This document shows, in pieces, positions 14,081 to 41,245 of a stretch of 64,000 bases of DNA; positions within the stretch are counted from its first letter, which is position 1; each line of letters starts with the position of its first letter. Under the pieces are notes generated by a model. The model made no database searches and was not told where the DNA came from. It saw only the letters and a program-made list of their open reading frames with translations. A program made the position numbers and the translations under genes. This DNA is from Isoetes taiwanensis (Eukaryota > Streptophyta > Lycopodiopsida > Isoetales > Isoetaceae): the NCBI GenBank assembly GCA_021234155.1, contig JAJEKV010000003.1, forward strand, positions 20,320,386 through 20,384,385, given 5' to 3'.

Positions 14081-14895
14081 GCTCAGTCGCACGTTTGTAT
14101 GCTAAATAACCATTATGATTAGAAAAAAAGGTTCGAATATTTGATTCCATTTGATTAAGTAGGAGACAAATCATGAAAGTTGGAGGACTACGTATTTGTG
14201 TTATTGGATCCCTCTCTCCATGAGAGTGAGTGTCTTTATGTCTGATTCCCGGATCTTATAGTCAAAGCGCTCAGTCTACTCAAGATTTGTCTTCAAGAAA
14301 CAAGTGCCAGCAAGAATCGCGTCCATTAAATGATACATCTCAGTGTCGGACATGCCCCTTAGAGATCGAAGAATCCTTTGTCGGTTTGTCAGGGACATTA
14401 GCTTGATCATCGTTCAGTTCCTTTTATCCACCTGCGTACCATTGACAAGAGACCTTAGACCTTATAGCATTAGACATAAAGATCCACTGCTTCTCGTCTT
14501 TCAGGTCTTTAACCTTGAGAGTAATGGTGGCGACTTCATAAAATTCATGTTTTATGAAAGAAAAGGTTAGGAAGATCGTCATGGCGATTCGCTTGAGTAA
14601 AGCACACAAAAGAAAAATATATATTATGTCTGGGCTATTATAGAAGGTGACCTTCTGGACCAGAAACTGCACAAAAAGAGGGAGCATTGCTTGATGTTGA
14701 TTTCGGAGTTGCTGTAGCCTCGCAATAAGGGGTTCCCTTTATACCGTATTGGCAATAATTGTGCTCTTTAGAGAGTCATAGGTACTTGGTATTACTCAAG
14801 TTACTGTTCAAAATCCTTGCCCTCCTTCTTGCGTATCTTTTGAGAATTCAGCTTACTGCTGAGTTGATGCGATCATTTTACATAGGATTTAAGCT

Positions 14896-15193
14896 GCTAA
14901 AATAGAATGGTTGCTAGATATAATGTAAGATTTCTTTTTTCTCAGTTGCGCAGGATCGGTGACGATGTCATGTGGAGAGTCTCTGAAAGATCTCAACAGA
15001 TTTTGTGTATGCTCATTGGATCTGGTCCTACACGCATGTAAGATGCTAAAATAGAATGGTTACTAGATATAATGTAAAATTTCTTTTCCTCAGCTGCGCA
15101 GGATCAGGTGACGATGTCATGTGGAGAGTCTCTGAAAGATCTCAACAGAGTTTGTGTATGCTCATTGGATCTGGTCCTACACATCATGTAAGA
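14896..15193. repeat. 149-bp tandem duplication of an exon-like segment
   Basis: Two copies (about 14896-15044 and 15045-15193), roughly 93% identical by eye. Each contains a pyrimidine tract plus CAG (acceptor-like), an open stretch GDDVMWRVSERSQQ then LCMLIGSGPT, and a GTAAGA/GTAAGAG donor-like end. It looks like one exon with its splice signals duplicated in tandem. A 1-2 base indel separates the frames of the copies. The parent gene is not recognisable. Confidence 0.55.
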
Positions 15194-15323
15194 GGAAGTA
15201 GCGATACAATTCTATATGCTGATACTCGTGAACCATGAAACACCCATAGGATAGTACCTTTTATATTGCTCCAGTTTTGAGGCATGATGGAAACGCTCTT
15301 GTATGCAATCTTATTGATTATAG

Positions 15324-15394
15324 GGGTAAACGCACGCTGTGGTGTATCACAAACGCGCATTTTGAGGCCACATTTTTGCACCTTCTTTGTGGTA
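15324..15394 (+). repeat. left terminal inverted repeat of the two-gene transposon
   Basis: Begins GGGTAAACGCACGCTGTGGT. Against the reverse complement of 33878 inward there are two differences in the first 22 bp. The outer core contains TGTGGTGT; a weaker match resumes near GTGGTA at 15389-15394. Flanked on the left by ATAG. Confidence 0.75.
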
Positions 15395-15572
15395 GAATCG
15401 GGTGGTGCATACCGAAGCGGAGATTGCGGGAGTGAAAATTAATGAGCGTCGGTTATTTTAAATTTTATGCCACGTCATTGTTCCTCATTTCAAATAAGGA
15501 AATAATCACCTCTTCTTCTGCTTTTTTGCCGCTTCTTGCCGATTGAACCCTAATGGAGTCAGAGTTGAATGC

Positions 15573-17176
15573 GGAAATGCTCCTAGAGCATTAAACACTT
15601 GAAATCAAACAAAATTTTGAAGCCTTGAGTAACGTTCATATTAAATAAAGATAATAATAACAAAAATATTACTTAGGAACATTGGGAGTGTCACCACCCT
15701 CATCGTCAGAGGACACTCTAACATGTTCTGAGTCTCTAATGGAATATTCACTAAGGAATTTGGTCAAAATGTCGTGCACATCACATGCACAACCATAAGA
15801 GAAGTTGGAAAGCGACATGTAAATAACTTCAAAGCTCTTCTAGGTCAATCTTAACTACGTCGGTCAATGGCAACCTCGGATTCCGCTTCATCTGGAAGAC
15901 AAAAGGAAGCAAAAGTGGGGTTAGTCCTGGAAAAGGACTAAGTGGGCAACCGCTACCTGGGTCTAGATAATCTGGCAAGAAACACAACATTACAACACAA
16001 CTTCATCAGTTAATAATGTCCAAGGATGATCAATCCCTCGCCCGGGCTCACACGTATATCGTTCGCGACACGAATATACGTTCACATACCAATCACCAGG
16101 TATGCACGTTGCTCAACTGCTCCAGCCCTCCGGCAACGACGAAGGGGCGGGTTCATTCAAACAGTTAAATCATATCTTTTAACCATTCCACTTAACCATA
16201 TCAAAGTAACAGGAACATAATAAAAGGAAATGTTCAACAACCATTTTCTACAAACAAGGAAACCTATAAGGAGTAATGGTTTTAAGCCTTAATCAACTAA
16301 TCTAGTGGATGTTTAATAAATTAAAAACCAAGAATTAAATAAGAACGGTAAAAAAACACAAACAAATATAACAAAAGGCTCTGTTTGCGCGAGGACAAGG
16401 CTGGAATGGCAAAAACAGGGTCAGAACAGGTCGGGATGGCGAGGAATCATGCCGGATTTATGGAATCAGGGTCAGACGGCTGCGGGATACTGGAATCAGA
16501 GTGTGAGAGGCCGTTCTACGGTTTGTTCTATCTTCAAGCTTTTAGGTATGCAACTGTAGAGCTTGAGGAAGCTTTAGATGGAATGATCTGCAACCGAAAT
16601 CCATATATGAAACATTCTGGAAGAAAACAGAGAAGATTAAGAGGCATCTGCTTAGAATACAGCAGAGGCTTGGATTTACGAAAAAAAATCCCTTTCTGGA
16701 GAAGTAAAACAAGAGAAGCTGGAGAATATAAAGTAAAGAAAACACAAGTATTCAAATCATGGTGCAATGAACTTCAAGGTCTGGCTCCGGTTAACCCACC
16801 AGTTCCGATTTTCCTCTTCTATAACAAGTCTTGATGGCGCAGGCAAAAGCTTTTTGAAATTTCGATCCACAAAAGACGTTTTTTCTTTGATAATATTATA
16901 ATCCTAAAGTTAGAGAAATATCCTCCCCTTTTCCATTAATAGGAGAAATCTTCCTATTCTTACAGATTCCTAACTGGTTAATCTCCCCTAATCTTAGCTT
17001 CGCTATTCTAATTCAAATCCCATATTCCATCAAATATCTAGTATACCATAGTATGAATACCATATTTACCTTATTCCCCAACCATTGCTATTCTCTTCCA
17101 TAATTAAATATTCCTACCCTAAGGTTAAGACTTAAAATAAAAACGTCAACTTACCCCTCCCCCTAAGTGCGTAACA
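15573..17176 (-). repeat. 3-prime LTR of the gypsy element (1604 bp)
   Basis: Closely similar to 21982-23734. Its minus-strand start is TGTTACGCACT, while the other end has mutated from CA (plus-strand GG instead of TG). Compared with the other LTR it lacks about 103 bp between two GAGTAA copies (corresponding to 22697-22799), and about 26 bp corresponding to a segment near 23250. Confidence 0.9.
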
Positions 17177-17191
17177 TTTTCTCCCACCCTG
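17177..17191 (-). other. polypurine tract of the gypsy element
   Basis: Read on the minus strand, CAGGGTGGGAGAAAA directly precedes the 3-prime LTR. It is the primer site for plus-strand DNA synthesis. Confidence 0.85.
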
Positions 17192-17208
17192 AAAATTTAC
17201 CCATGTCC

Positions 17209-20200
17209 TCATGGAGAGAAATCGGGATAACAATGATTGAACTCCTCAACGTCAATCCACGACGCATCCTCAATAGGTATTCTTGCCAATGCATAAGATA
17301 TTTCTTGATTTCTCGATTTCTCAATTTTCGAATGTCGGTATCAAGGATTTGCTGTGGTTTAAGTAGCAATTTCGAGTCTTGAGCTACCAAATCATCCGGT
17401 TGTAGAACATGTCGGTTTTTAGAAAGATAGCGACGAAGAATTCCTACATGAAATACGTTATGCACCCTTAAATGATTTGGCAAGTTCAATCGATAAGCTC
17501 GAGTTCCAACTCGACCAATGATTTCAAATGGTCCAGCAAACCGTGGAGCTAATTTCTTAGCTTTCGGAAACTTCAAAGAACCTTGCTTAGGATTTATCCT
17601 CAAAAACACTTTATCCCCTATAGCAAATTCACAATGATGCCTCTTTTGATTTGCATATTGCTTTTGCCTATTCTGCGCAACCTGTAAATTATGACGCAAA
17701 AGTTTCAGTTGCTCTTCAATCCCTTTGACCCTTTGATTTGAAGCCTCAACTTGACATAGAGGATCTCGCCAATTAACAGGACATCTGCAATCTTCTCCAT
17801 AAAGTGCTTGGAATAGGCTCATCTTGAGAGAATCTTGGTACGTATTATTATAAGCAAACTCCGCAAGGGGTAAGATAGAATCCCAGGTATGAGGGTGATC
17901 CATCACATACATCCTTAACATGTCTTCAAGAACATGATTAACTCGCTCAACCTGTCCATCAGACTGGGGATGATATGCTGTGCTTATCCGAAGTTGAGTA
18001 CGAATGTTCTGAAAGAGTCCTTGCCAAATTGACCTGTAAACTTAGTATCTCTATCTGACACAATTGATATAGGCATACCATAAAGCCGAAAAATCTCCTT
18101 AACAAAGATACGAGCAATATCCATGGCAGTTGTTGTAGACTTAGTAGGTAGGAAGTGAGCTTGTTTAGTCAATCTGTCAACTACCACATAAATTGCATCA
18201 TAACGGATCGCGTTCGAGGAAGGCCAACAATAAAATCCATGCCAATACTTTCCCATTTTCGCGTAGGGACGTCCAAAGGTTGTAGAAGACCCGGTGTTCT
18301 ATAGGTAAGCAAGTAAGAACATAATACTGAATATATCGCTTCATTCCTGGCCAAAAGTAATGCTGACAAACTTTTCGAATAGTTTTCTTAAGTCTAGGAT
18401 GACCTGCAATAGGATTATCATGAGATTCATGCATTATTTCGTGTCTTAATTGCTCATTATCTGGAACACAAATACGGCCTCTGTAAAACAAGATTCCATC
18501 CTTCAGACAGTAATTCTTAACATCTTGTCCTTGTACCCAAACAATCGCATATCTTCTTCAACTGCTGATCCTCCTGTGTTAAAGTTCTAAACTTCTCATT
18601 CCATGGATTCTGAATTTTACTCACCATAGTATATAGAGGCCTACGAGATAAGGCATCAGCTACAACATTGTCCTTACCTGGAGAATAATCTATTTGAATA
18701 TCATACTCTTGTAGTAACTCCATCCAACGACGTTGACGATTATTCAAGTGGGGCTGGGTCAGAAAATCCTTAAGGCTACGGTGATCCGTTTTGAGGACAA
18801 ATGGTTTTTCCAAAAGATAATGTCGCCATACTCTTAAAGCATGCACTATAGCTAGCATCTCTAGATCATGAGCTGGATAATTAGATTCAGCCGGTGTAAG
18901 CTTGTGAGACTCATATGCGCAAAACCGTCCATCCTGCATCAAAACTCCACCAATTCCAAGACCTGATGCATCGGTTACAACTCGAAATGGTTCATTCATG
19001 TCTGGTATCCTCAATATAGGAGCAGAAGTCAACGCTTCCTTGAGAGTTTCAAAACTTGCACCGCACTTTTCACTCCAAAGGAAGTCTTGCCCTTTGCCTA
19101 GCAAAGATGTAAGAGGTGCAGCTTTCTTGGCAAAACCTTTAATAAACTTCCTGTAATATCCTGCAAGACCAAGAAAAGCTCTTACTTCCCGTACATTGCC
19201 AGGTTGTGGCCAAGATTTAACGGCATCCACTTTGCTTGGATCGGGTTCAATTCCCTTTTCTGAGATAACGTGTCCTAGATAAGTCATACGATGTTGGGAA
19301 AAGGAGCACTTGGACATCTTTGCGCTCCTTAAAATAGACAGTACTTTCCTTAAGTATTGCACGTTCCTCCAAAGTCTTTGAATAAATCAAAATATCATCA
19401 AAGAATACTAACACATATTGATCAAGTTGTGACCTGAATGTGTCATTCATAAGTCTCATGAATGTAGCAGGAGCATTAATCAGTCCAAAAGGCATAACCA
19501 CAAATTCATAATGGCCATACCAAGTCCGAAATGCTGTTTTATATATATCAGATTCTTTAATTCGGATTTGGTGGTAACCTGATCTCAAATCAATTTTAGT
19601 AAAATAGCTGGCATGTCCAATCTGATCAAATAACTCATCAATCCTTGGCAAGGCATATCTATTCTTAATGGTAATTCTATTCAACATCATGTAATTAATG
19701 CAAAGCCGTAAAGTTCCATCTTTCTTTTTGACAAACAACACTGATGCCCCAAAGGAAGAGGTGCTAGGCCGAATAAACCCTTGATTCAATAGCTCAGTTA
19801 ACTGCTTCTTAAGCTCAGCCATCTCAAGAGTATGGAATCGATAAGGTGGTCGAGAAGTTGGTGTAGCTCCTGGTTCCAGTTCAATTTCATGATTAGCTGC
19901 CCTAAACGGTGGCAACTCTGTTAACTCTGGCGGAAAGACATCTTGAAATTCGTCTAATACATTCTGCACTTCTTGGGGAATTGTCTCCTCTTTAACTTCG
20001 GTATGACATGCGAGGTACCCCACAAACATTGAGCATTTCTTGTTCATACATCTTCTTGCTGCTTTCAAACTTAAGAGTTCAAGTTTTCTTTCTATTGGAG
20101 CCCCACAGAGTTTAACTTCCACATCCAGATCTGGTCGACACCATACTATCTCCTTCTCACAGTCAATCAGGGCACGATTTTGTTTCAACCAATCCATGCC

Positions 20201-20607
20201 TAAAATAGCTTGATACTGTCCTAGACTTACAATACCTCAAAGTCAACCTTAGATGGAAAATCACAAATCTAGAATGGTAAGGCAGGCACAAGAGCTTGGG
20301 TGAACTTGATCTTTCCATCTGCCATTTCTACACTTCGTACTGCATGACCTTGTTGTTGAACAATCTTCGGCGATATAAAACTATTGGTGCTGCCACAATC
20401 AATCAAAAATTTAATTGGATACTCAAGAATTTTACCTGGCACATGAATTACTCCAGTTTGAGCCGTAGGCTGACTTCCATCGATAGCTGCATACACGCGC
20501 ATGGATTCCTGGGCCACATCTCCAATCGTAATAGCTCGAGCATTACATGGCCTGTTTTCCTCGATTACCCTTTGAAGTATTTTCATTCCGTGGATTGGAT
20601 ATTCCAT
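17209..20607 (-). pseudogene. gypsy pol: protease, RT, RNase H, integrase, chromodomain-like end
   Basis: Polyprotein in several frames. Protease: FLIDCGSTNSFIS (about 20400), with DCG in place of DS/TG, a variant seen in plant gypsy elements. [26 protein letters not shown] and catalytic [13 protein letters not shown] (about 19390-19430). A frameshift at about 19365 looks like a 2-bp loss. RNase H: VVTDASGLGIGGVLMQ, with KTDHRSLKDFL downstream. Integrase: zinc-binding H...HES..GHP..KKT...YFWPGM, then the DDE core [24 protein letters not shown] and TAYHPQSDGQVERVN, split by frameshifts near 18250 and 17985. The C-terminus reaches LMHWQEY and, one frame over, IEDASWIDVEEF, a chromodomain-like signature, ending at TGA 17211-17209. 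At least four frame breaks make it inactive. Confidence 0.9.
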
Positions 20608-21472
20608 AAGCGGTTCTGCGTTCCTGTATTTTCTGCGGACAATCTCTTACTTGATGACCCACCTGATGGCAGTGAAAACATTTGTTTTCCCTCAATAACT
20701 TCTCCCTTATCTTATCCGCTTCCGATTGAGTTTGTACTCCATTAGTATTCTTCAGCATCATAATTGCTTCACTTTTCCGACGACAGTTATCGGGGTGATT
20801 CCACCCAAAATCATCACTTGTACGCTTCTTCCATGATGCGTTTAGTACCTCCTCCTTATACTTGGCAGCTCTAATCGCTTCACCCAAGCTAGGATACATT
20901 ACTCCTCCAATTAAAACAGACAACTCTGGCTTCAAACCCTTGATGTACTTGTCTGCTAGCTGTTCTGGTTCAAATGGAGGTCCGTAAGGTTGCAACTGCT
21001 GAAATTTAACTGTATAATCTTCTACCGATTTTGTCTGCGTCAAGTTCAAGAAATCATGCATCTTCGCCAATCTATATCCCACAGGCAAGTAATGTAGCTG
21101 GAAAGCTTTTCGGAACACATCCCAGTCAATATCTCCAAAGGTAAGCTTATGGATCTTCTTATAATCGTTCCACGAAATCTTAGCAAAGCTGGTGAGTAAC
21201 AAATCCGCAATAACAGCTTTCTGCTTCTCAGGCGTCTTCTTTATGCTAAAATAGAATTCTATGCCACGGAGCCATGCATCTGCATCATCGCCCATGACAT
21301 CCTTTCCCGTAAACCTTTCTTGCTTGACATTGCGAAGGATCTTGTTAATCTCGTCCGCTACTGGATCCTTTGCGATAGGCATCTGGTTCTGGAGTAAACC
21401 CAACTGTTGCTGCACTCCTTGCAGTATTTGACCTAGCATTCGTACTGCAGCGTTGTCATCTCCTCCCTCCAT
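20543..21472 (-). CDS. gypsy gag with zinc knuckle
   Basis: Structural capsid protein, 309 aa, uninterrupted. It begins MEGGDDNAAVRMLGQILQ, carries a retrotransposon gag core (ADAWLRGIEFYF; VFRKAFQLHYLPVGY; EDYTVKFQQL) and ends with one CCHC knuckle (CFHCHQVGHQVRDC). The stop at 20543 overlaps the protease frame. A one-base slip there (GKQAM then, in the next frame, NARAITIGDVAQ) suggests gag and pol were once a single frame and an extra base now separates them. Confidence 0.92.
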   Translation of the reverse strand: MEGGDDNAAVRMLGQILQGVQQQLGLLQNQMPIAKDPVADEINKILRNVKQERFTGKDVMGDDADAWLRGIEFYFSIKKTPEKQKAVIADLLLTSFAKISWNDYKKIHKLTFGDIDWDVFRKAFQLHYLPVGYRLAKMHDFLNLTQTKSVEDYTVKFQQLQPYGPPFEPEQLADKYIKGLKPELSVLIGGVMYPSLGEAIRAAKYKEEVLNASWKKRTSDDFGWNHPDNCRRKSEAIMMLKNTNGVQTQSEADKIREKLLRENKCFHCHQVGHQVRDCPQKIQERRTAYGISNPRNENTSKGNRGKQAM

Positions 21473-21966
21473 GTTAATCTACAATCCACTTTAACAAGTT
21501 CGTTAGAGTTCTAACAAAGACAATCCAAGTTCCAATCCTTAACATTCGGTTAAATGCTAAGTCAAGAATGGTTAACGCAAGTAAAACATATATTTTTTTA
21601 TTCATTCTCAAGAGAGTACACACGTGATCCATGCACGCAAACTTCTATCCTTTCAGGAGGTTCAAAAGATCTATGGTGCTCAAAGAATGCTATTTGGGCT
21701 TGCTTTCGGGTTTTTCTAGTTCCTATTTCGAAGCCTCAGGTAGGCTTTGGCAATTTTCATTGTCCTAGGGATCCAAACTTGGTTGACGTAGCTAGAATAT
21801 GGAGGATTTATTCCTAAGGCTTTCCTCTCTGGCTCGGGGCTGGATACTTCGGGACCCTCTTCCTCATCACTGGATATGTTGATGACCTCCTTTTCCTCGC
21901 TGTCACTTGGAATATTGATGATCTCCAATTGTCTGGCCCAATAACCGGTTAGCGATCAGGAACCTA

Positions 21967-21979
21967 GGCTCTGATCCCA
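21967..21979 (-). other. primer-binding site, initiator tRNA-Met type
   Basis: Minus strand TGGGATCAGAGCC, two bases after the 5-prime LTR. It differs by one base from the usual plant site TGGTATCAGAGC. Confidence 0.85.
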
Positions 21980-21981
21980 AA

Positions 21982-23734
21982 TGAAACGCTCCTAGAGTGT
22001 TAAAACACTTGAAATCAAACAAATTTTTGAAGCCTTGAGTAACGTTCATATTAAATAAAGATAATAATAACAAAAATATTACTTAGGAACATTGGGAGTG
22101 TCACCACCCTCATCGTCTGAGGACACTCTGACATGTTCTGAGTCTCTAATGGAATATTCACTAAGGAATTTGGTCAAAATGTCGTGCACATCACATGCAC
22201 AACCATAAGAGAAACGTTGGAAAGCGACATGTAAATAACTCCAAAGCTCTTCTAGGTCAATCTTAACTACGTCGGTCAACAGCAACTCAGTCAACGGCAA
22301 CCTCGGATTCCGCTCCATCTGGAAGATAAAAGGAAGCGAAAGTGGGGTTAGTCCTGGAAAAGGACTAAGTGGGCAACCGTTACCTGGGTCTAGATAATCT
22401 GGAAAGAAACACGACATTACAACACAACTTCATCAGTTAATAATGTCCAGGGATGATCAATCCCTCGCCCGGGCTCATACGTATATCATTCGCGACACGA
22501 ATATACGTTCACATACCAATCACCTGGTATGTACGTTGCTCAACCACTCCAACCCTCCAGCAACGACGAAGGGGCGGGTTCATTCAAACAATTAAATCAT
22601 ATCTTTTAACCATTCCACTTAACCATATCAAAGTAACAAGAACATAATAAAAGGAAATGTTCAACAACCAATTTTTACAAACAAGAAACATATAAGGAGT
22701 AACTTGGTACATGCGAGAAGCATTATGACAACATAAGGAAGTAAAAGAAAGGTTAGGCAAAAATCGAGTTCTTAGCTAGAATCGAACTTGGATCTCTTAG
22801 AGTAATGGTTTTAAGCCCTAATCAACTAGACTAGTGAATGTTTAATGAATTAAAAGCCAAGAATTAAATAGGAAAGGTAAGCAAACACAAATAAAGATAA
22901 CAAAAGGCTCTGTTTACGCGAGGACAAGGCCGGAATGGCAAAAACAGGATCAGAACAGGTCGGGATGGCGAGGAATCATGCCGGATTTATGGAATCAGGG
23001 TCAGACGGCTGCAGGATGCTGGAATCGGAGTGTGAGAGGCCGTTCTATGGTTTGTTCTATCTTCAAGCTTTTAGGTATACAACAGTAGAGCTTGAGGAAG
23101 CTTTAGATGGAATGATCTGCAACCGAAATCCATATCTGAAACATTCTGGAAGAAAATAGAGAAGATTAAGAGGCATCTGCTTAGAATACGGCAGAGGTTT
23201 GGATTTAAGAAAAAAAATCCCTTTCTGTAGAAGTAAAACAAGAGAAGCTTAGTCTGACAAGATTTCCTTCGTAAAGGAGAATATAAAGTAAAGAAAACAC
23301 AAGTATTCAAATCATGGTGCAATGAACTTCAAGGTCTGGCTCCGGTTAACCCACCAGTTCCGATTTTCCTCTTCTATAACAAGTCTTGATGGCACAGGCA
23401 AAAGCTTTTTGAAATTTCGATCCACAAAAAACGTTTTTTCTTTTATAATAATATAATCCTAAAGTTAGAGAAATATCCTCCCCTTTTCCATTAATAGGAG
23501 AAATCTTCCTATTCTTACAGATTCCTAACTGGTTAATCTCACCTAACCTTAGCTTCGCTATTCTAATTCAAATCCTGTATTCCATCAAATATCTAGTATA
23601 CCATAGTATGAATACCATATTTACCTTATTCCCCAACCATTGCTATTCTCTTCCATAATTAAATATTCCTACCCTAAGGTTAAGACTTAAAATAAAAACG
23701 TCAACTTACCCCTCAACCCCTTAGGTGCGTTATA
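21982..23734 (-). repeat. 5-prime LTR of the gypsy element (1753 bp)
   Basis: The plus strand starts TGAAACGCTCCTAGAG and ends GTGCGTTATA (mutated from ...AACA). It is longer than its partner because it retains the segments at about 22697-22799 and 23250-23276. The segment around 22780-22800 read in reverse has a tRNA B-box-like GTTCGATTC, so a small insertion here rather than a deletion in the partner is also possible. Confidence 0.9.
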
Positions 23735-24479
23735 AATGCCACTGGTTACACGATGAAATCTCTCCTCAAACAAGAGATTGTGCCCCATGAAGATCTAAAG
23801 AAGCTTTGGGGTGACAAAGTTCCAAATAAATCTGGCTACAGGTATTTTCCCCCAAATGTTTGTTCAAACTGAAAAATTAAGGCATATGTTTTCTTGTACA
23901 TGTTGAAGAATCTGAGCAATGGACAATATAAAGAGTTCATGCAAATTTACAAACGAATTACAGGGAAGCCACATACATGGAGTGGAATGGCTCCTGGAAC
24001 CTGGGCAGTGGCTTATTATCTACATATAAAGGGGGAGGCTGTTAATTGGAAGAGCTTCTTGGATTATTATAGAACTCAGGATGAGAAAGCAGAGGACAGT
24101 TCTTCTAGACCCAAGAGAAAGCATAGGCAAATCTAACCTGAGCAGGAAGAAAATAGTATAAGTGATAGGGATGATGAAGATGATAGAGAAAAAACCAAAT
24201 CAGGTTCCTCTAGACCACACATTCAATCTGAACTCACAATCAAAACAGAAAAGCAGAGCAATGTTTCGAGACCAAATATGCCATTGCAGGTATGCTCAAT
24301 TATTAGTTGTATTACAATAGGAAAAAATCTCAAATTTGAATCTCAAATTTGACCTAGATTGTTTGTATCAACACAGAAAAGGTAACCTCAAATCCACTTC
24401 AAGAATCAGGTATGTCTACTACCATTTTGCATCATGTTGGCTGTATTGTCATGTTGTGCCTCTATGATGCCATTTGTAA

Positions 24480-25060
24480 TGGCTGCCACAATGATAGATG
24501 AGGTATGTGTGGTCTGGTAAGTGGTGAGTTGTTGGCATGTTGTTTGTGGTGTAGTGATGAGAATAATGCTAGCGTTTGTGGTGTCGTGGTGGAGTGGGGT
24601 GTTATGCTGCCAATGGTGCTAATAGTGTTGCTACATTGTGGCGCATGGCATATGTGAGGTGATAGTAGCAACAAGTGAGGTGTGGTGTACCAGTGTGGTG
24701 TGATGTAGGTTATTGTGCTGCCAATAGTGGTGATAGTGCAGCCTATGTTGTGTGGTGTATGCACCGTGTTGTGTGGTATGTAATGTGTGGTGTGGTGTAG
24801 GTTATTGTGCCGCCAATGGTGGTGTATGTTGTGTAGTGTATGCACCGTGTTGTGTGGTATGTACTGTGTGGTGTGGTGTAGGTTTTGTGCCGCCAATGAT
24901 GGTGAATGTTGTGTGGTGTGTGGTGTGGTGTAGGTTATTGTGCCGCCAATAGTGGTGATAGTGCAACCTATGTTGTGTTGTGTGGTGTGTGCAACGTGTT
25001 AGAGAATACCTTGTGTTGTGTTGTGTGGTGTGTGATTGTGATCTTCCATCAATATGTGGC
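24480..25060. repeat. TGTGGTG-rich intron array
   Basis: Within an intron of gene A. Degenerate tandem repeats with a clear 80-bp sub-array (24746 and 24827) containing TATGCACCGTGTTGTGTGGT and GTGCCGCCAAT, plus a shortened third copy near 24904. The same TGTGGTG word occurs in the transposon TIR. Confidence 0.75.
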
Positions 25061-26052
25061 TTATTATGTTAGGAGGCTGACATATATGGAGTGTTTTGTT
25101 TTGCAGACTATGGCAGACTTGTGAAGAAATGATTAGCTGCAACATCAGCTAGGTTTGATAGATGCAAGCAACAATTGCAAGCAAACGAGAGTAGAAAAAT
25201 TGATATCAATAGAAAGATTGAGTTGATGGAGCATAAAGCATCAAAAATTAGAGCTGATTTGCACAGATGGCAGTCAATCATGACTGCAAATCCAAAAGCA
25301 GCAGAGGGTGTTCGGGTTGTAAGCGAACTAGAGGATGAAGAGCTAAATGGTACAGTGTTGCTTGGGCTGAATCAATTGAATAAGGAACTAGTAGGAACTG
25401 AAATTGAGCTAAAGGCATGTGAAGCCTTACTGCTGGAGCTGCAACCTCGAATGCAAAGATTTGAGATTTTCTCTGAACATAGTAGCCATGACACTCCTTT
25501 AGATCCTGCACTTTTAATGCTTCTTGAGGCAGAAGAAGAGGGTGATGAAGCTTGTCCATATTGTGGACGGTGTCTGAAATGGGAGGGTAAATTGTTGCCA
25601 GTTATGATAGCAGAATGCAATCATCAGTATCACATTCCATGTCTGTCACACCATTTGAGGTAAACATTATCATCTCTAACCTTGTTTGCAGACTCTATTG
25701 ATATTGGATTTGTTTTACAGATACTCTAGAACCTGTTGCAGCCCCAGTTGTGCCCACATTATGTCTGAGACATGGCTTTTGACTTTTGGTGTTCGAGTGG
25801 TACCACAAGAACCAATAAACACAAGTAAGTACCTTAACTAATGTTTACTGATGTTGTCACAGGTCTACTGACTTAGTGTTTGCAGAATTGCAGAAATTTG
25901 AGACCAAGGATATCCAACAGTTATCCACGCCTCAATCAGTTATGAGACTACAAGATACCTCCCGGGTGCACCTAGAATTTACCCCATTGGATACTTCAAA
26001 GTCAATCCCAGCTCCTCAATAAGTACCAATGCCACATACATGATTTATTTTT

Positions 26053-26907
26053 GGGGAAATTATAAGAATGCCCTTGTATTTTGACGAAATAATTAAAATG
26101 CCCCTATATTTTAGTAAATTATCAAAATGCCCAAAATGCCCCTGTTTTTTGCATGAGACAAAAATCGACCGCAAATTCTACCTTTGTGCATGGAATACTC
26201 TTCTTAATCATGCCACAAATGCTCTTCTTGTGGTATGGCAGATGGCTCTAAAAGCCTTGTGCTCATCCACTGAAGAACTTGAAGCTCCAAAAGTACTGAA
26301 GCTCTAATATTATCTCGCAGGTTGAAATGCAAAGGGACACTGAATAAGTTGAAGCTCCATCACAGGTACATATTCCTGGGGGTTTTCTTTTTGTTCTTTT
26401 TCCTTTGAATCATTTAGTTTCAGTTTCTTGATAGAAATCCTGGATAAACGCAGAGAATGCATGATAAATCCAAGAATTATGGGTGCATGCACAATTTGAG
26501 ACTTCTGTTTTAGACATTTTTTCTGCAATATTGCGATGCTATCAGCGCATCCCTTCTAAGGCTTGAACAGTCCGTCAAGGTAACAGAAGAAATTCTACAG
26601 GGATTCTTATAAGAATCGAAAAAACAAGGCAATTGGTCTCATGGGAGCAATTAAAAACCAAAGGGGGAAGTACAGGGAAGCTTGCTGCAGATAAATTTGG
26701 ATTTGGATCATACCTTTACCTGAACCTGATGATTAAGCTCTTAGAGCTTAAATTCGTAGCATGGGATCAGTTAATTAAGGCACGAAGGTAGAATTAGTGG
26801 TTCATTCTTGTCTCAGACAGAAAACAGGGGCATTTTAATAATTTACTAAAATATAAGGGCATTTTAACAATTTTGCCAAAATACAATGGCATTTTTATAA
26901 ATTTTCC
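26053..26907. mobile_element. MULE-type MITE with about 100-bp TIRs
   Basis: The left end GGGGAAATTATAAGAATGCCC and the reverse complement of the right end GGAAAATTTATAAAAATGCC match through about 100-150 bp, including TATTTTAGTAAATTAT and AATTCTACCTT. TTTATTTTT flanks both ends (26044-26052 and 26908-26916), a 9-bp target duplication as for Mutator-like elements, although the site is low complexity. It has no ORF of its own. It interrupts the presumed intron between the RING-like and HAD exons. Confidence 0.85.
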
Positions 26908-27061
26908 TTTATTTTTTTTTGTATTTTTCTTTGGTCTTGCTCATTTCAATTATGTTACAGAGATAAATGCTACTGCAAACCATCAAGAAGTGCAGTGCAT
27001 CTGTTTTAGGAGGAAAAATTAATTCCCTTGAGACTCATTCTACATAGGATCCTGCACAGAC

Positions 27062-27825
27062 AAACGTTTTGCTGCTGAACATGAGCCGCAAATGGATGCA
27101 GATGATGAAGTTAACAAATAAACCCCGGATCCTGAACAAGATGCAGCCCGCTCATCAAGTCCAATACAACCTCAACCAAGAAAAACCAAGAGGTTAACTG
27201 AAATTCTCCTTGTTCTGGATTTTAATGGGGTTTTGGGCAAGTTTTATGACTTGAAAGAGAGGATCCCTGCATCGACCGACCAGAAGTGACCCTCCAGGAA
27301 TTGAACCTTCAAAAGGCAGCAGTTTCCAGGCCTGGATTACAGGAGTTCTTAGAGTGGTTTTTTAAAATGTGAGATTGCATTGTGGTACAGCATGGTTAAG
27401 AGTAATGTCGACTTGTTGGTGAGAAAGTTGATGCAGGAATATAAGGGCAGATTTCTTTTTATTTGGAATCAGGATGACTGCACCAACACAAAGTTAAAAG
27501 TAGTTAATAAGCCAATTTTCCTTAAGGATCTATCCAAAGTGTACCAGAAATACTAGAAATACCAAGTGAAAAATATATTGTTGATAGATGACACCAGATA
27601 TAAGGGTTCTGCCAACCAGCTAAACATCATGATATGTCCAAATAGTTTTGCTCCGGACAGATTGGATTCCAATTTCATTTTGGAACAACTCAAACCATAG
27701 CTGGAAGGACTTCTGGCGACAGGAAGTGTGCCTGCTTATGTGAAGGAAAATCAAATGTGGAACATGTGGGATTCTGAAGAGTCGCGCAACTGCATGAAAA
27801 TATTCGACAATTATTTTCATAAATG
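27062..27825 (+). pseudogene. transposon gene A: FCP1/NIF-like HAD phosphatase domain
   Basis: Decayed HAD-superfamily domain of the FCP1/SCP (NIF) class, which removes phosphate from Ser/Thr residues of proteins. The frame from 27062 gives KRFAAEHEPQMDADDE, a stop, then LTEILLVLDFNGVLGKFYDL, where the motif I Asp (27218) is in the plant-style DxNGVL form. After a frameshift come VSRPGLQEFLEWFF, IALWYSMVKSNVDLLVRKL, FLFIWNQDDC, then KPIFLKDLSKVY (motif III Lys) and NILLIDDTRYKGSANQ (motif IV Asp pair, 27597-27602), followed by NIMICPNSF. Domain order and spacing match the family. There are two or more frameshifts and several stops. The second Asp of motif I is replaced by Asn, so the ancestor may have been weakly active or only a binding domain. 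Confidence 0.75.
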
Positions 27826-27909
27826 AATCTTGTAAAACTCTTTGAAAGTCAATATAAGTAAAAAATTTTCTATGATATGTGTTGTACTTTTTCAATTTAA
27901 AATATTTGA

Positions 27910-28807
27910 ATGGACTGTGAGCAAATGTTCTCGTGTGTATTTAGAACTAGAGATGATAGAGCTTCGGCAGTCCCTGTCTATCTAAAGCCACATATATATT
28001 TGGAAGTATTGCTGAGTAAAAGTGAATCTGTCGTGATTAGCTCTACCGACATCAAAATTTTGGAAGCTGATACGCAGTGGTTCAATGATCAATTGATCCT
28101 CCTTTTCTCAAGGTGATACTTTTATCTGATTTGTGATCATCAGGATTGTGCCATCATATGCATATGTTTGCAGATGTATGGAATACTACTTGATGCTCCA
28201 AGGAATGAGCCATCCCATTCATTTCTTTGACCCTTTTTTCACTCGACATTACAAATAGTTACAAAACAATAAGGAAACATGTGAATCTGGATAAGTGTCA
28301 GTACATGTTTATGCCTGCTTGTGATGGACATCACTGGACCTGTTTTTTGATCGTAAGCCGCGCGTGTCTCGTATAGAGATATAAACCAGCAATATATCAC
28401 TTTGATAGTATGGGCTTGCATGGCAGAAGCAGACATATTAAGAGGTTAGTGCTTGCTCATTGCATTTTGCTGTTGTCACATAATGACAACAAACTTTGAA
28501 TGCAGGTTCCTGGAATTGCTTGGACACAATAGTTTCAGCTTTACAACCTCAATGTTGTGAAAATGTCCAGAACGCCTCTTCAAACCGATGACCATTCATG
28601 TGGCCTTGGTGTATGTTCGTTTATGCACAAATTTGTGAGGGGGTACTTGAAAGGAGTGAATATATTGTTGCATAATATAGTAAGTCAACTCAAATGTAGC
28701 AGACAAACCAAACTCTGTTATTGACAAAGTGTGATTAACTGCAGGTTGTGGACATTTCAGACCAGGATCTAGTTGATGTTAGAGTGTTCATGCTTGAGAA
28801 GCAATAA
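27910..28807 (+). pseudogene. transposon gene A: Ulp1/C48 SUMO-protease domain
   Basis: Cysteine protease domain of the Ulp1 (C48) family, which cuts SUMO or similar modifiers. Exons: up to 28112 (DIKILEADTQWFNDQLI, the W.ND..I entry motif), about 28174-28444, about 28506-28679 and 28745-28807, with GT-AG borders. Catalytic set: His in GHHW (28332), Asp in HFDSMG (28404), oxyanion Gln in PLQTDD (28581) and nucleophile Cys in HSCGLG (28599), all in the order and surroundings expected for C48. TAG between His and Asp, two stops and a frameshift near 28280, and a TGA/frameshift near 28557 show decay. The ending VRVFMLEKQ-stop at 28805 may be original. Whether it was a separate gene or the tail of the RING-like protein cannot be decided from the window. 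Confidence 0.85.
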
Positions 28808-30899
28808 AAGCTGGAACTGAGAGGAACATATGTATTAGGAAGTATGTAGGTGCATATGTCACCTCGTACTTTCAAATCACTGTATATCTTTCTTATGTAC
28901 ATAATTGTTACTGCAATCTCGATTCATTTAAATGAAAATTCATATTCAATTATATATTCTCTGTCACAAAATAAGGCATCAAGTATTCAAAAGAAATCAA
29001 GACAAACTCATTTTTACAGCTGAAGCACAAAACTTCAGATGAGTTCTGAAAATTACAGAATGGTTTTACATTTCATCCTCATCAGAAAGAATTTCGGGTA
29101 ATTTCTGTAAAATTCTCTCCTCATCTAAAGGATCCAGCCTATATACAATTTTGTTTTGACGTTTAGTTGGTGACATGTGAAGTCTGATTGCACAGATCTG
29201 TGTTGTGAATACTATGTCTAAGGTGTCTTTACTGCAAAGATCATAGCTGACGGTTGATCTTTCGCCCTTCTTGTAATACATACCTTCTACGACACTATCA
29301 CCGGTGAGGTACCATGTTCTATTGAGTTGGAAGTCTTTCTCCATTATTTATTTTGGTTTTGTGCATATCAGAATCCAAAATTCAGCACCCTCATCATTCC
29401 CTTTTGGACCAACTCTAAGTGCCTCTGCTAATATCGTGGGATTGGAGGAGAACAAGGACCTGCTGGATTTATGGTTTTCCTCAATGTCAGCATGCACATT
29501 GGAGGATGGTACAATAACTTGAAGTTTCCAATCATCAACATAGTCCTTGTTCGCACAACTGTCCCACATGCCATCCAAGCAATAGCTGCAGAAGCATGAA
29601 AGTTCCCTCGTGTGCAACTGCAATGGAGATTCATGATTGAATGCATGTACACAATGGATCTTCATAGTATCCAAAATCCTTTCTGCACCCCATGCTTTCT
29701 TTCTATCTATATCCTCCACCTTGACTTCCCAAAAGAACCTTTTTATATTTTTTCTCTTGCTGGTTTCAGATGCGTTCATCCGCTCGGATGTTCCACAAGT
29801 AAATATCTCTTCAGCAACTTCTACCACTTCATGAGCATTACCCAATTTTATGTTGCTGTATTTTAATTGCAGTTGTCTTAACCATCTCTTCAACTAAGCA
29901 GCCTTGCCATCATGTTCACCTTTCCCGTTGGTATAACCAAAAAAATTCCACATTATATAGACTTCAGTGTCGTTTATGTACCTAGCCACAAAGTAACATG
30001 GTCTAGAAGCCTTGAATTAAGATGCTTCACCATCTGAAAACACATATAATGTCTCTTTGGCACCCTTTCTTTCTGCTCCAGATATTTGTGGTGCTTTATG
30101 AAGCAGTGTTGCACGAACAAAGTATCGTGTTCCCTATCATCTGATACATAGTAATGTGTTTCCTTGATGATCTCATCTGCCACTGAGTCATACTGATATG
30201 TTATTTGAACCAAAATGGTAATCTGGTTATTGACCCAACGCATCGACTGCACCTCCTCTTGTTCCTTGAATGTATAGTTCTCTGCAAAATCGACTACCAA
30301 AAGACATGCATCTACAAGAGATTCTCCAGAAACTCCTTAAATTGTTTTGCCTGCCACTTTTAGACGCTCTTTCAGTTTATCTAGAAGCTCCTTAGGTTCT
30401 GTCTCATTGTACCGATGAGTCAATCTCCTAACAGAACTCGAGATGTTGTCTTTTTCATATTCAATGTACTCCCATTTCATTTTCCTGTTACTACCACTTT
30501 CTTCCATGGGACAGGTCTGAAACTTCTTGATTCCACACAGCTTACAATCTCCAAGGATGCACGCCTTCTTGTGAAACTCATCTAATTCACTATGTGGATA
30601 CAATATAGATCTCCACAAGCTTTCTATACTTGCAATTTTATGCTGGTGTACCCTGCATTGACCAAGTTCATGTGCAAGTGCGATTCTTCGGATGTTTGGT
30701 TCTCATCCCATTGAGTCCATCCACTAGCATTTGTATCCTCACATGCTGAATGCAACAACAACTATTGAAGTCCTTCAATTTCACAACAAACCAAGGTTTT
30801 AGCTTCTCAAAAGCTCGACGACGAATCTTAATTTGTGGATGTTGATCCTTGAACCTATTGAACAATAGCATCTGCATGAAATGAACACTAAACTATTAG

Positions 30900-31800
30900 G
30901 ATGTGTATACTACACCATACCATGCACCGTATCATGCCCCACACTAATCATATTCACCAGACCGAGCACCTTAGTGCTGTGTATATTACCACACACCACA
31001 CCACACCATGCATCACACACATCATAACCATCAAACAGACGAGACTAAACTCATGCCACACCACACACCACAGAGCACATACCATGCACCACACATTCTA
31101 CATCACACATTCTACACGCTATACACCATCCACCACACATACCATACACCAAATGTATGGTGGTAGCGAGGAGTAGTGGGACATTGTGCAGGGTGATAGA
31201 GTATGGTGGTGGGAGATGGTGGGGTGTGGTGTGGGACATGGTGGAGTGTCGTGGTGAGAGATGGTGGGGCGTAGTGTAGGACATGGTGGACTGTGGTGGA
31301 GTGTAATGGTGGGAGAGTGGTAGGCTTCAAATGTGGTGGTAATGGAGAATGTGGTGCATGTGGTGGTGGGAGATGGTGTGTTTGAAATGTGGAGATAAAT
31401 GTGGAGGTGGCAAAGATGTGGTGGTAGTCTATGGTGGATGAAATGTAGTGGTAGGATAGATGGTGGGGTGTTATGTGGTGTGGTGGTGGTGACAAATGTG
31501 GTGAACTGTGGTGGTGAGCGATTGTCGATTAAATGTAGTGGTGGTGGCGAATGTGATGGAGTGTGGTGGCGGGAGATGGTGTGCTTCTAGTGTGGTGGTA
31601 ATGAAGAATGTGGTCAATGTGGTGGTGGGGGTGGGGGGGGAGGGGGGTGTGTGGGGGAGTGGGGTGGGGTTTGGGGAGAATATATAAAATAATGAATCCA
31701 CATATCATACATTTAACATGCACTTACCCACATGACACCATAAATATCACGCACCCCACCCCCCCACCCCACCCCACCCCACACCACACATCACATCACT
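30900..31800. repeat. CACCACAC/GGTGG-rich intron array
   Basis: Within the large intron of gene B. Left part CACACCACACCATGCA-like, middle GGTGGTGGGAGATGGTGGGG-like with a period near 60 bp, right part G-runs then C-runs. Open frames here are repeat artefacts. Confidence 0.75.
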
Positions 31801-31956
31801 TTGATCCTATTTGGTATGCCATAAAAAATTTGCCTAGCCTCCTCTCATAACATTTCTGAAATTCGTACCCTGATAATAATTACATATCTTTCCTAATATT
31901 AAAGATCTACCCACTAAATCCTGTCCCTGCACTAGATTTTTGGCATTTCGTTCTCA

Positions 31957-32299
31957 AGCTTCCAAGTTTATTCCGGCAATAGTTAACAGGAGGTTCAGAG
32001 ACAATTAAGGCCAAGCTAGAGTGAGCGAGGATGGCCTTTGGTTTGCTTTAGCCAAGGCCCGTGACCAGTTGGATATGCCTAAATCCACCTTCTTTGCTCA
32101 ATTCGAAGCCACCCTAAACGCATTTAACAGACTGGATGCTGGGCCATCAATAGCTATTTTTGGGGTCGAATTGATGGGAAGATAGCTTTCAGACAAGGTC
32201 TCTAACCTTATGTTACATGCAGCTGCAAAGACAGGTATAGCATGGGTTATTCGGCACTTGCTCGCTCTGAATCGGCAACAGGGGAAATTATTGACAGGT
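31957..32299 (+). pseudogene. unidentified coding fragment, opposite strand to gene B
   Basis: The plus-strand frame reads KFIPAIVNRRFRDN, stop, GQARVSEDGLWFALAKARDQ, then STFFAQFEATLNAFNRL, GPSIAIFGVELMGR, stop, LSDKVSNLMLHAAAKTGIAW and HLLALNRQQGKLLTG, ending at a donor-like GTATGC. Composition is strongly protein-like. I do not recognise the family. It sits inside gene B's big intron in reverse orientation, so it is probably a nested insertion or captured fragment. 32400-32880 holds no gene. Confidence 0.45.
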
Positions 32300-33803
32300 A
32301 TGCACTTACCACGAGGGGATGCAGGAAGCACTGGCGAACCTGATGCTATGCAATTCTGGGATGACTGCACAAAGCTTGGATAGTGCAAAAAACAGTCATT
32401 TTGGATGCACCAGCAGTGGATCTAGTAGTATCAGCATTTCCTGCTGCTCAGGAAATGCATGGGTAATAGTTCTCGGGTACAGAGCTTTCAATGAAAAGCC
32501 AAATTTTGTAATATAGTGCTTCTTTTTTTAATATATTATAAACTTTCGAACAGAGATGTACTTTCATCTGACATAAATTTGTCTTTATCAATTCAACTAA
32601 ACTTTTAGGATTAGTTTTCAATTATCTGTCATTCTCAAATATTTTTAGACTGTATACGCAGACCCAGTAAAGGAATATAGTACTTGTAACTCAGTTCTGT
32701 CATGTTCTAATATTCCCAACATTAAATATTATTTAGCTGCATTTCAGAGTCAACTACACACAATTCACATGCTGCATACATTACACCACAATCATTGTAC
32801 AACACAATAACCACTACATGCACCACCACACTAAGCACCATAACTAAGAAAATATGAATAACAGAATTTATAAACTAACCCGTGATTCCTCCAGATAGTG
32901 GGCAGCATGTTCTTCTCTTATATTTCTCTCCAATCTTCTAGTTCTAACATCCTTTGTGTTAGGAGACACTCTGGTGTTCTCAATCCAAAATTTTTGAATC
33001 TTTTCTATTTGTTCATCTGAAATTGCATCGAATCTTTTAGCCCTCTTATAAGAAACCCATTTCCCACCACTGTAATCGATCTCTGCCCTATTTTCTTTGC
33101 CTTTTGCAGGTTTCTTGGGTGAACACCTAATACCTTTCCAAGATCTCTCTGGCTGATTTTATCACTTGTTTCAGAATCTGCACGGCTTGGTACAGACATT
33201 GCAAGGCAGCTATTCTTGGCTGCTAGGCAATCATTGCTGGTAGAGAGTTTCACAGTTTGCATAGAGTCCAAGAGGCTCCTAGTGACAATGCTCTTGGCTT
33301 CCAAATTTCTTCAATATTTTATCCCTATAAATTTTTTCAATGTTTTATCCCTCAAAAACCTCAAGTAAAATTTCTTTCTTCATGCTATCCTCAATTCTTT
33401 TGGTCTGTTTGTGGAAAGACGTTAGCAAATTAAGGACAATACGACGTTTACTACTTGCACTTCTTGATGAATCGGATCCTTCTGCCAATTCTGCAAGCTC
33501 CAATCTTTCCTCTATTCTTCTTTTCCACTGGCGTCTTTTCTTCAGCATTTCTTCTTCCTTGGTTCTTCTTCATTTTCTCCTATCTGAAATGCCAGTTTGT
33601 GGACAGATTACCTCGTTGACATCCATATCTACAATGGATTGGAGATTGCAGCAGGGAGCCAAAGAATAGAACATAGGCAAAGAACAGGAAGGGGCCAAAT
33701 AATAGGAATTTGAATTTTAGTTTTGAAATTAGAATTTCCCCCACAAATTGGGACTCCATTCTTAAATAACGGCAGTTGAGCGGTGCCATAATTATAATTT
33801 CAT

Positions 33804-33878
33804 ACCACAAAAGTGGCAGATGCACGACCACATTTTGGGGGGACAGCCAAATTGGGACACCACATCGTGCTTTTACCC
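33804..33878 (-). repeat. right terminal inverted repeat of the two-gene transposon
   Basis: Reverse complement begins GGGTAAAAGCACGATGTGGT and continues with CACTTTTGTGGTA at bases 64-76, as at the left end. Followed outside by ATAG. Confidence 0.75.
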
Positions 33879-35619
33879 ATAGCGATGTGGAAACAAATGA
33901 AAAATAGTGGAAGCATTGAAGGACGAATTTGTGGCTGCACAGGAGAAACATATACTCATCGGGATCACCTAAAATGAAAATAAAGAGCACATGGATTGTT
34001 TAGAAACACCATGGATGTATGACGACTGTTTTCATTATGAGTATTCTATGAAAATAGGTAATTTACTTGAGAATGATGAAAGCAATATTATTGAAGAAAG
34101 TAATATGCTTGAAGAGGATAAGGGCAAAGCGCTAATGGAATAGAACTTTATGATGGCAATGAAGAAGTAGTTGTTGCCGAATAAGAGCCGAGACATGTCT
34201 TTGATGAAATACTAGATGAGAAAGATCTATCAAATGGAGGCAAGTTTGTCAGGCAAATTAAATGCAAAAGCTTTACTTAGAATTGGTTCAGACTGTGCCG
34301 TCTATTTTGAGGAGAAGATAAAAAATAAACTTTAATCAAAAACCATAATGACCAAAGTTGAATGGAGGAAATTGCGATTTCTTCAAGTGAAATACTGCAA
34401 AAAAATATGGTATCTTGGAAGAGTGTTAAGATGAGCAAGAAGGTGGAAAATTCATGAGAAAATAGAGAACCTGTGGACTTGGCTAATAGGCTATACTTTG
34501 CTATTAAAGTGAACCTTGGATGGTATAATTTACATGGCAACAAATAAATATGATATGACTTGTCAGACAATCAAACCATATCTCTTGATTCTAGAATACC
34601 CCGTGCTTATTTAACATACGAAGCTAGTTCAAATAGGTACCACCGAGATGATAATAATAAACTCTAGCTTAATAAATTTGTGCTTGATGAGTTCATGGAA
34701 TGCGCAGTATTTTCAAATTTGTATTTCCGATCTCTGTCCTAAACTATTTTATTCTTTATTGAAAATCCGACCCTTGCAGAAATACTTGAGAATAATTTTC
34801 CTTTGGCGTTCTGAAAATATGACAGTTGGTTTTTGCACATAGGCACGAAATAGTTGCAGTAAAAATTGCACATAGGTAAGTGTATATAGGTAAGTGTATA
34901 ATGGGTGAAGGATGATTAAGATGCATACACACTCTATTGACAAAAACTTCCGCTTGCATAATTAGGCCAAGAATTTGCATATTTTAGCCTTTGATTGCAT
35001 TCTTTACTTGTTAAGCTGCATTCCCTCACTTGCAAAGCATAGATAGTTTCGAGATCTATTAGAAAAAAAAAAAGAGCCCACAAAAGATCGATTTGCCCAA
35101 GCTCAGCTTGCTGTTCACAGTCTGTGACAGTCTGTCAGACCTAAATCCAAGATTTCAGGATATTTTGCACCTATTTATGCAAAAAGTGTACTTTGCTATT
35201 GTGTGCAGGCATATAGAAAGGAGATCAAAGCATCAAAACACAAAAAAGATCTATCTTTTTCGATTTACAGAAAATCACTCTCTGCCAGGGATATTGACCA
35301 ACTTTTGACCTGGCCAGATGCATATTTGAATGATCTTCACTAATAATAAGACATCTGACTTTTTACCTAGCATTCCTCAAGATCTTAAGCAGCTTTAGCA
35401 TTAGAAATCATGAGCAAATCCTTGTTTGTTTGCATATGGCATCATGTTTTGTAAGGCAGACTTTTTTCTGATTTGGGAAAGTGATTGAAAATTATTGTTT
35501 GAGCTTTTTGCCTTGGAATTTTCTCACATAGAGTGGTTGCCTTAAGCAACCTGGAGGTTCTAAACCATTGAGGTTGAAGGTTTTGCCAGGAACATCTTCA
35601 ACAGTTAGCAGTTACATTA
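33879..35619. other. AT-rich intergenic DNA, no clear gene
   Basis: A short plus-strand frame (33991-34143: MDCLETPWMYDDCFHYEYSM, then an acidic tail) and scattered protein-like stretches to about 34560 suggest an eroded transposon ORF that I cannot identify. Nothing is supported from 34600 to 35619. Confidence 0.4.
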
Positions 35620-38613: not shown

Positions 38614-39497
38614 TATTATTGAGGGTGCAAATTTGCAAATATCCTCCTCTTCAAATCCCTTTCCCCCCTCCCTTCCCCTTTTTTTTTTTGCAATATACTA
38701 TCCATAGCATTTATTTTGAACCCTATAGTTCTACCTATTCATTGCGTATGAATGTCGCTCCGGCGATGTAACTCCATAGTCACCCTTCGTTAAGGATAGC
38801 ATTCTCACCCACGAGCCTATGGATAGATATCCTTCCTTGTCCGATCGATCGGATTCGTTGAATTGTAAGAATGAATGGCAGAGAGCAACAACGATGAATG
38901 GGAAGAGTCGAAAAGTAGGAAAACTTCAGAATGAAAATTTGGATAGTAAAAACATGGCATGTAACGTACGTTTGCTTGTCCACACATTGCCTCACCGTTG
39001 TTGCTTAACTCTATGCTCGCCCCGCAAAAACACAGACACTATTGGAGACTTGGATTCCAAATGAAGAGCGAAGGCGGAGAGGATGCACGTAGCGGTGCTA
39101 ATGTGAACAATGGAAATCTTGGTGCCAAAATTTGATAAGGTGGTTGGTGCATGTGGGCATGTGCCTGATGGGGCGGAAAAGTAGCCATTATTTTGGTCCG
39201 CGATACGATTTTCGAAAAATGCGGGCCATTAATGTGGTTGCAATGAATGCACACACATGTCCTATGAAATTTCGCCATGTGGATGCCAAGTAAGCCTGCT
39301 CCTCTTTCTACTTGCCAACTAATACTGACTTTGGAAAAAAATGCGCAAACATCATTGGTCGCGAGAAACATGACGTGGAATTCTGGCATCCAAGATATGG
39401 GCCATTTTGAGACCCCAAATCCGCCCCAATGAGAGATCTTGCGTTCAAGTCTCTGGGGGTCCGTCATATATCCTCCTGCCAATGTGGCATGACATAA

Positions 39498-39653
<156 letters not shown>

Positions 39654-40719: not shown

Positions 40720-41245
40720 TTTATAATACAATCCACTGTAGAAAAGAGTACTTGAATTTCTACATGTCTAATAATTCTATTGTCACATGTCTTTATAGAT
40801 GTAGAAAAGAATATTTGATTCTCTACATGTCCTATACTTCCATTCACATGTCTTTATAGTAGTAGGACAGAGTACTTTATTTGCTAAGGCATTGTAGGAA
40901 AGAATACATGAATTACGACATGTGTAATACTTCTATTGTCACATGTCTTTATAGAAGTCGGAAAGAATACTTGATTCTCTACATGTCATATGCTTCCATG
41001 TCACATGTCTTTATAGTAGTAGGACAGAGTACTTTATTTGCTAAGGCATTGTAGGAAAGAATACATGAATTACGACATGTGTAATACTTCTATTCTCACA
41101 TGTCTTTATAGAAGTAGGAAAGAGTACTTGATTCTCTACATGTCCTATCCTTCCATATCCGCGGGTCTTTATAGTGGTAGGACCAGTACTTGATTTGCTA
41201 CATGTGATGCACGTGCACTGCGATCACATGTTCTTATACTAGTAT
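40720..41245. repeat. ACATGTC-rich degenerate tandem repeat, copy A
   Basis: Alternating modules containing TCACATGTCTTTATAGAAGT, GGAAAGAATACTTGATTC and CTACATGTC, with a higher-order period of about 155-157 bp (for example 40847 to 41002). The counterpart is at 53450-53995. No gene. Confidence 0.8.

Follow-up and report, generated by a model that had tools for sequence, protein, structure and literature searches.

A decayed copy of an abundant two-gene, probably Sola-like DNA transposon family in Isoetes taiwanensis

The stretch considered here (henceforth the window) is a 64,000-nucleotide piece of contig JAJEKV010000003.1 from Isoetes taiwanensis, and its positions 15324-33878 hold a single copy of a DNA transposon family whose copies are numerous in that species and which carries two genes, referred to below as gene A and gene B. 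The window copy is dead, each of its genes being broken by stops and frame changes, and the explanation that we prefer, at a probability of roughly 0.65, is that it is a decayed member of a high-copy cut-and-paste family in which gene B would be a Sola-like transposase and gene A would encode an accessory protein. The unit, its ends, the duplication of its target site, the order of its genes, the domains of gene A and the constraint on gene B can all be read directly from the copies.

The element begins with GGGTAAA at 15324 and finishes with TTTACCC at 33878; 20 of the outermost 22 bases are common to the two ends, TGTGGTGT is present in each, and ATAG lies immediately outside both. This confirms the terminal inverted repeats (TIRs) and the ATAG flanks described in the initial annotation, the flanks forming a target site duplication (TSD).

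15320-15323, no strand: left TSD, ATAG, from comparison of the flanks
15324-15345, plus strand: left TIR, 22 bp, from comparison of the ends and genome matches
33857-33878, minus strand: right TIR, 22 bp, from comparison of the ends and genome matches
33879-33882, no strand: right TSD, ATAG, from comparison of the flanks

Identical 4-bp flanks were found in all five copies for which both ends are known, so that the fixed duplication, which had initially been put at either 2 or 4 bp, is one of 4 bp:

Window copy, both ends known: TSD ATAG
L027, full-length, 9374 bp: TSD GGTT
L030, full-length, 9402 bp: TSD GATT
L022, 6579 bp, internally deleted: TSD ATTT
C1045:9704850-9715836, sequence read at its two ends only: TSD ACAT

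Six end pairs were examined inside loci, of which five are proper and each have a TSD; the sixth (in L011) combines the end of one element with that of another and lacks a TSD. Partner ends were also sought for four copies (L020 via L035; L043, L045, L047), and none was found. The locus L011 holds, at its positions 2865-3184, a 320-bp miniature element with 22-bp TIRs (GGGTAAAAGCATGTTAGGGTGT), TSD ACAT and an interior of its own, which is, as judged from its sequence, a sister family with the same type of end. At two neighbouring right ends, C1045:9715836 and C1045:9727705, the outer flank is the same (ACATCCACACATCCAC), which suggests local duplication of an element-bearing segment.

The abundance of the family is apparent from genome searches, in each of which 40 matches were scored, so that copy numbers are lower bounds. 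All 40 scored matches were obtained at 94-100% for the left 101 bp (468 first-look candidates), at 86-100% with E <= 3.1e-29 for the right 101 bp (473 candidates), and at 93-100% for a 301-bp piece from the HAD region of gene A (494 candidates); given 40/40 scored matches for each end, a TIR arising by chance was rejected. Immediately outside GGGTAAA there are five kinds of flank among eight loci (window included). Four of the loci (L002, L005, L007 and L008) have one left flank in common and are therefore not independent insertions, the common flank suggesting either that a host segment was duplicated or that the element had inserted into another repeat.

In both full-length copies the order is left end, gene A (plus strand), gene B (minus strand), right end, so that the convergent pair of multi-exon genes first seen in the window recurs elsewhere. 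Left-end copies were fetched at 24 loci (L009-L014 and L017-L034; L015 and L016 are extensions, and L016 has no match to the element). Gene A sequence is present in 21 of these 24 and gene B sequence, in some cases as a fragment only, in 11, all 11 of which also hold gene A. Approaching the question from gene A, 6 of 40 scored exon matches have a listed left end no more than 25 kb away and 8 of 40 have a listed right end no further off (window included in both counts), in the orientation expected, where chance would give about 0.05 pairings per list; eleven right-end pairings are listed in all, two of them wrongly oriented. One locus found via its right end (L036) comprises 9.9 kb, of which about 1.9 kb is element, and gene A is absent from it; a correctly oriented gene A exon is situated 19.9 kb away from that right end. 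The single mobile unit initially proposed is thus supported by ends, TSDs and gene order shared across copies, and neither of the two patterns named at the outset as speaking against it, separate occurrence of genes A and B or boundaries away from the GGGTAAA ends, was found among these loci.

Gene B is, on the strength of its motifs, most likely a transposase of Sola-like and probably Sola2-like kind, Sola2 being the more tentative of the two labels. Its parts in the window are as follows.

32871-33626, minus strand: gene B exon 1, basic N-terminus with a weak helix-turn-helix-like match (E 0.053)
30893-32870, minus strand: gene B intron, holding a TGTGGT-rich array
29069-30892, minus strand: gene B 3' exon block, with Cys cluster, DFAENY, SDG, GKGEHDG and C-terminal CxCxxC; frames broken in the window copy

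The layout runs from a Cys-rich cluster through DFAENY, an HD pair, SDG(A/V)ASQFK and NHGKGEHDG to a C-terminal CxCxxC region. The DFAENY, SDG and GKGEHDG motifs picked out originally in the window are common to other copies too, and their acidic residues are largely kept (DFAENY Asp in 7/7, SDG Asp in 9/10, GKGE Glu in 9/10 and EHDG Asp in 8/10). This layout and order presumably correspond to those of a widespread animal transposase type, which we treat as an unconfirmed lead. No relative emerged from viral contigs, which were covered by one protein-derived scan and by two that used motifs; in prokaryotes one pattern scan gave 0 matches and another 6, which appear chance-like by tblastn (best E 1.0).

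Gene A, on the opposite strand, has a more readily recognised content.

23900-24274, plus strand: gene A exon 1, no known domain
25049-25660, plus strand: gene A exon 2, coiled-coil-like stretch (by eye) and RING-like finger at about 25550-25660
25852-26034, plus strand: gene A exon 3
26957-27823, plus strand: gene A exon 4, linker and then NIF-type HAD domain from about 27197
27910-28116, plus strand: gene A, N-terminal part of the Ulp1 domain
28251-28721, plus strand: gene A, catalytic part of the Ulp1-like protease

In a composite gene A protein, the Pfam families NIF/HAD (PF03031; 1.5e-15, 57.6 bits against a cut-off of 21.8) and Ulp1 Peptidase_C48 (PF02902; 4.3e-9, 37.0 bits against 20.7) both score above threshold. 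In the PDB the Ulp1 part finds SENP5 (9gnn; best E 5.8e-7), SENP1 and also yeast Ulp1 (6.4e-5), and nothing matches the HAD part at E 0.01. The RING-like finger of the initial annotation stands to the extent that six of the eight RING-H2 ligand positions can be located by eye in the window, the final pair not having been located, but the RING families fall below their Pfam cut-off (best 18.3 bits against 31). The Ulp1 catalytic His, Asp, Gln and Cys, at first called intact-looking, are each readable in open reading frames of the window but not in one frame; among alignable copies the Asp is kept in 9/12, the Gln in 7/12 and the Cys in 8/12, the rest being gaps, frame breaks or changes, and these losses are due in part to alignment across frameshifts. 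In the HAD domain the first Asp of motif I is present in 11/16 copies, the Lys in 14/14 and the motif IV pair in 14/14 and 13/14, while at WSS the window has Tyr where 13/16 alignable copies (window included) have Ser. Neither the pairing of NIF and Ulp1 in one transposon gene nor a transposon with a NIF domain was met in searches of the open-licence literature, where some co-mentions were judged by title alone.

Selection on the two genes was assessed by mapping changes by codon position onto trees of the copies and comparing internal with terminal branches. Purifying selection on internal branches is clearest, within this family, in gene B, for which non-CpG changes at positions 1/2/3 number 25/22/52 on internal against 98/119/97 on terminal branches (Fisher p = 1.8e-4), the corresponding figures for all sites being 37/33/67 and 132/135/132 (p = 0.0014); a cruder count of shared sites gives the same pattern for gene B as the tree. 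Gene A is at most weakly under selection: with all sites included the counts are 61/70/107 against 241/228/249 (p = 0.005), and the shared sites of its RING exon show 27/23/39 before CpG filtering. From these branch-wise counts it follows that decay has been neutral after insertion, and that gene B was constrained during the spread of the family and gene A at most weakly. Divergence between the window copy and L027, L030 and L022 is 0.09-0.10, and between L027 and L030 it is 0.041.

A further feature of the family is the hexamer TGTGGT, which in the four copies read occurs at position 15 from the ends, with a second occurrence at position 65 from the left end and at 70-79 from the right. Arrays rich in it are found inside all four complete copies read, lying in the full-length ones in introns of both genes, and 51 of the 70 TGTGGT hexamers in the window (both strands) fall in transposon sequence outside the retroelement nested in it (see below).

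24460-25040, no strand: TGTGGT-rich array in a gene A intron
About 30914-31812: TGTGGT-rich array in the gene B intron

Going beyond what the copies themselves display, to catalysis by gene B, the superfamily and a role for gene A, one can sketch how such a family might move. Gene B would bind the element ends, putatively via the shared TGTGGT motifs, cut the element out and join it to the target with a 4-bp stagger. Gene A, with its RING-like finger, its NIF-type HAD domain of altered motif I and its Ulp1/SENP-like cysteine protease, would act as an accessory protein, most likely, by analogy, editing SUMO-type marks, whether those of the transposase or those of silencing factors. More generally, its targets may plausibly be SUMO or phosphorylation marks of the host, and the Ulp1-bearing VANC offers the nearest model. 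The suggestion in the initial annotation that gene A handles host modification of the transposase stays no more than plausible, selection on gene A being weak.

Several results weigh against the preferred explanation and are best considered together with its competitors. For the gene B composite the best Pfam match has E 0.053, and for its core pieces the best E values are 0.012 in PHROGs and 0.039 in NCBIfam, none of these being significant; one piece compared with the PDB has no match at E 10, and a single-sequence AlphaFold model of a 101-aa fragment is poor (predicted local distance difference test score 52) and uninformative. The last piece of gene B also has no codon-position signal (3/9/4 on the tree; 11/7/3 at shared sites). 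Evidence that gene B is a transposase thus consists of motifs and selection, with no significant profile match, and the DDE transposase originally proposed stays a putative one. Faced with a gene B that matches no profile, one might suppose that it is not catalytic and that an unseen transposase recognising GGGTAAA ends moves the element in trans, and the 320-bp element in L011, with cognate ends, a TSD and a different interior, implies that such ends are movable in this way; yet gene B shows the clearest purifying selection in the family and is present in both full-length copies, and we consider this the least probable of the alternatives. The same absence of a profile match, together with so unusual a partner as gene A, might instead point to a distinct, non-Sola superfamily with an obligatory two-gene system. 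This too is improbable, if slightly less so, as the lengths of the TSD and TIR and the size of the element all fit Sola, and as gene B may have its motif order in common with the animal transposase type mentioned above; given the structural fit to Sola, the distinct element class initially proposed is likewise improbable.

A more substantial competitor concerns gene A, which might be a captured host gene, carried as a passenger on a Sola-like element without any role in transposition; we regard this as possible, though the less probable account of the gene. HAD motif I is normally DxD, and the HAD motifs reported at first are accordingly only partly upheld, in that the NIF domain is secure but motif I reads DFN, with N at the second position in 12/16 alignable copies and D in 0/16; motif I being without its second Asp, ordinary phosphatase chemistry by this domain is doubtful. 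The Ulp1 His is kept in just 5/12 alignable copies (window included). At non-CpG sites the internal-branch bias of gene A is marginal (50/50/59 against 203/189/174 on terminal branches, p = 0.15), its shared sites are flat over codon positions after CpG filtering (85/74/60), and 10 of the 21 gene A copies show no gene B within the fetched loci, although these reach only 9.9 kb from the left end, so that absence there is no proof of loss. That plant transposons capture genes is covered by a review (PMC13317346), which also describes the function of Ulp1 in KIU elements as unknown. Set against a passenger, however, are the presence of gene A in every gene-B-holding copy fetched, the retention of the Ulp1 Asp, Gln and Cys in most alignable copies, and the third-position excess on internal branches when all sites are counted, with that of the RING exon before CpG filtering. 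The preferred explanation, of a Sola-like transposase with an accessory protein, could be taken considerably further: the mobility of this Sola-like (or separate) lineage might depend on a self-encoded enzyme that strips SUMO and also, with its DxN HAD domain serving as a phospho-reader and not as a phosphatase, attaches to phosphorylated factors of the host, while the intronic TGTGGT arrays would serve as regulatory reservoirs for transposase binding. We think it unlikely that all of this holds.

The initial annotation took 15324-33878 as the element, and this is indeed one transposon copy, but its size is inflated: it spans 18.6 kb because an 8.2-kb Ty3/gypsy element and a second insertion are nested inside it, full-length copies without them being about 9.4 kb.

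15574-23730, minus strand: nested Ty3/gypsy long terminal repeat (LTR) retroelement, foreign to the transposon, from its LTR pair and Pfam
26016-26914, no strand: further insertion, in the window copy only, with inverted-repeat arms of ~108 bp

The LTRs of the former lie at about 15574-17172 and 21983-23730 and are 93% identical (K80 0.042), and its interior has Pfam matches to gag, reverse transcriptase, RNase H and a Tf2-1-type SH3 domain. Apart from the window, 12 copies can be aligned to the left and right of the second insertion, and all 12 lack it, with a gap of ~88 bp in its place.

Elsewhere in the window, a short tandem duplication (159 bp, 93%) lies just to the left of the element at 14887-15193. 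Arrays of a degenerate 19-bp unit, AACATGCCAAGGTGGCTCA, occupy 41315-42863 and 54062-55548, within a large duplicated block (39189-43705 and 51883-56372) that is 94% identical. Tandem units of 313-325 bp occur at 46807-47621, 59292-60122, 48243-48946 and 62466-63163, those of 313-316 bp containing AAACCCTAGGGTTT, which we take to resemble plant telomere repeats.

Few DNA transposons have been curated in this plant lineage, for which a defined and abundant family with two genes is now available. The family also provides a further plant DNA transposon with an Ulp1 protease, in a different type of element, so that recurrent recruitment of SUMO proteases becomes testable by comparison; and should gene A prove to be conserved in other lycophytes, it would represent recruitment by a transposon of a NIF-type domain.

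Among known systems, two that carry Ulp1 were considered for the element itself and rejected. Mutator-like elements have TSDs of 9-11 bp, as against 4 bp here, and no Pfam match to such elements was found. Ginger1 elements combine Ulp1 domains (in one family also PHD) with a transposase and have a 4-bp TSD, to which extent they are alike, but there the Ulp1 domain is fused to a gypsy-type integrase, the TSD is CCGG or CCGT and the ends are TGTNR (PMC2836005); here the TSDs are ATAG, GGTT, GATT, ATTT and ACAT, the ends are GGGTAAA, neither composite has an integrase match in Pfam, and Ulp1 belongs to the separate gene A.

The element is Sola-like in structure, that is, by TSD, TIR and size, transposase homology not being among the points of likeness. 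Sola elements are described as having a DDD transposase, a 4-bp TSD, TIRs of 11-1124 bp and sizes mostly of 2-9 kb, some exceeding 15 kb, and as occurring in moss and being uncommon in flowering plants (PMC10741241); the TSDs of Sola2 are 4 bp and AT-rich (PMC3627910). The 4-bp TSD (5/5 copies), the 22-bp TIR and the full-length copies of 9374 and 9402 bp agree with this, as would the occurrence of Sola in moss, the difference being that the accessible parts of these sources mention no accessory NIF+Ulp1 gene (PMC10741241, PMC9033089, PMC3627910).

For gene A, the closest parallel is VANC (KIU) of the Arabidopsis VANDAL elements, an accessory gene with Ulp1 that is linked to hypomethylation of related elements (PMC13317346). 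In both cases a plant DNA transposon has a separate Ulp1-bearing accessory gene, whereas the KIU/VANC elements are non-TIR Mutator-like elements and no phosphatase is mentioned for them in the accessible text of that review (PMC13317346). The SUMO proteases SENP1, SENP5 and Ulp1 resemble the gene A protease in sequence across the catalytic domain, and differ in that the latter sits in a protein with a NIF-type domain.

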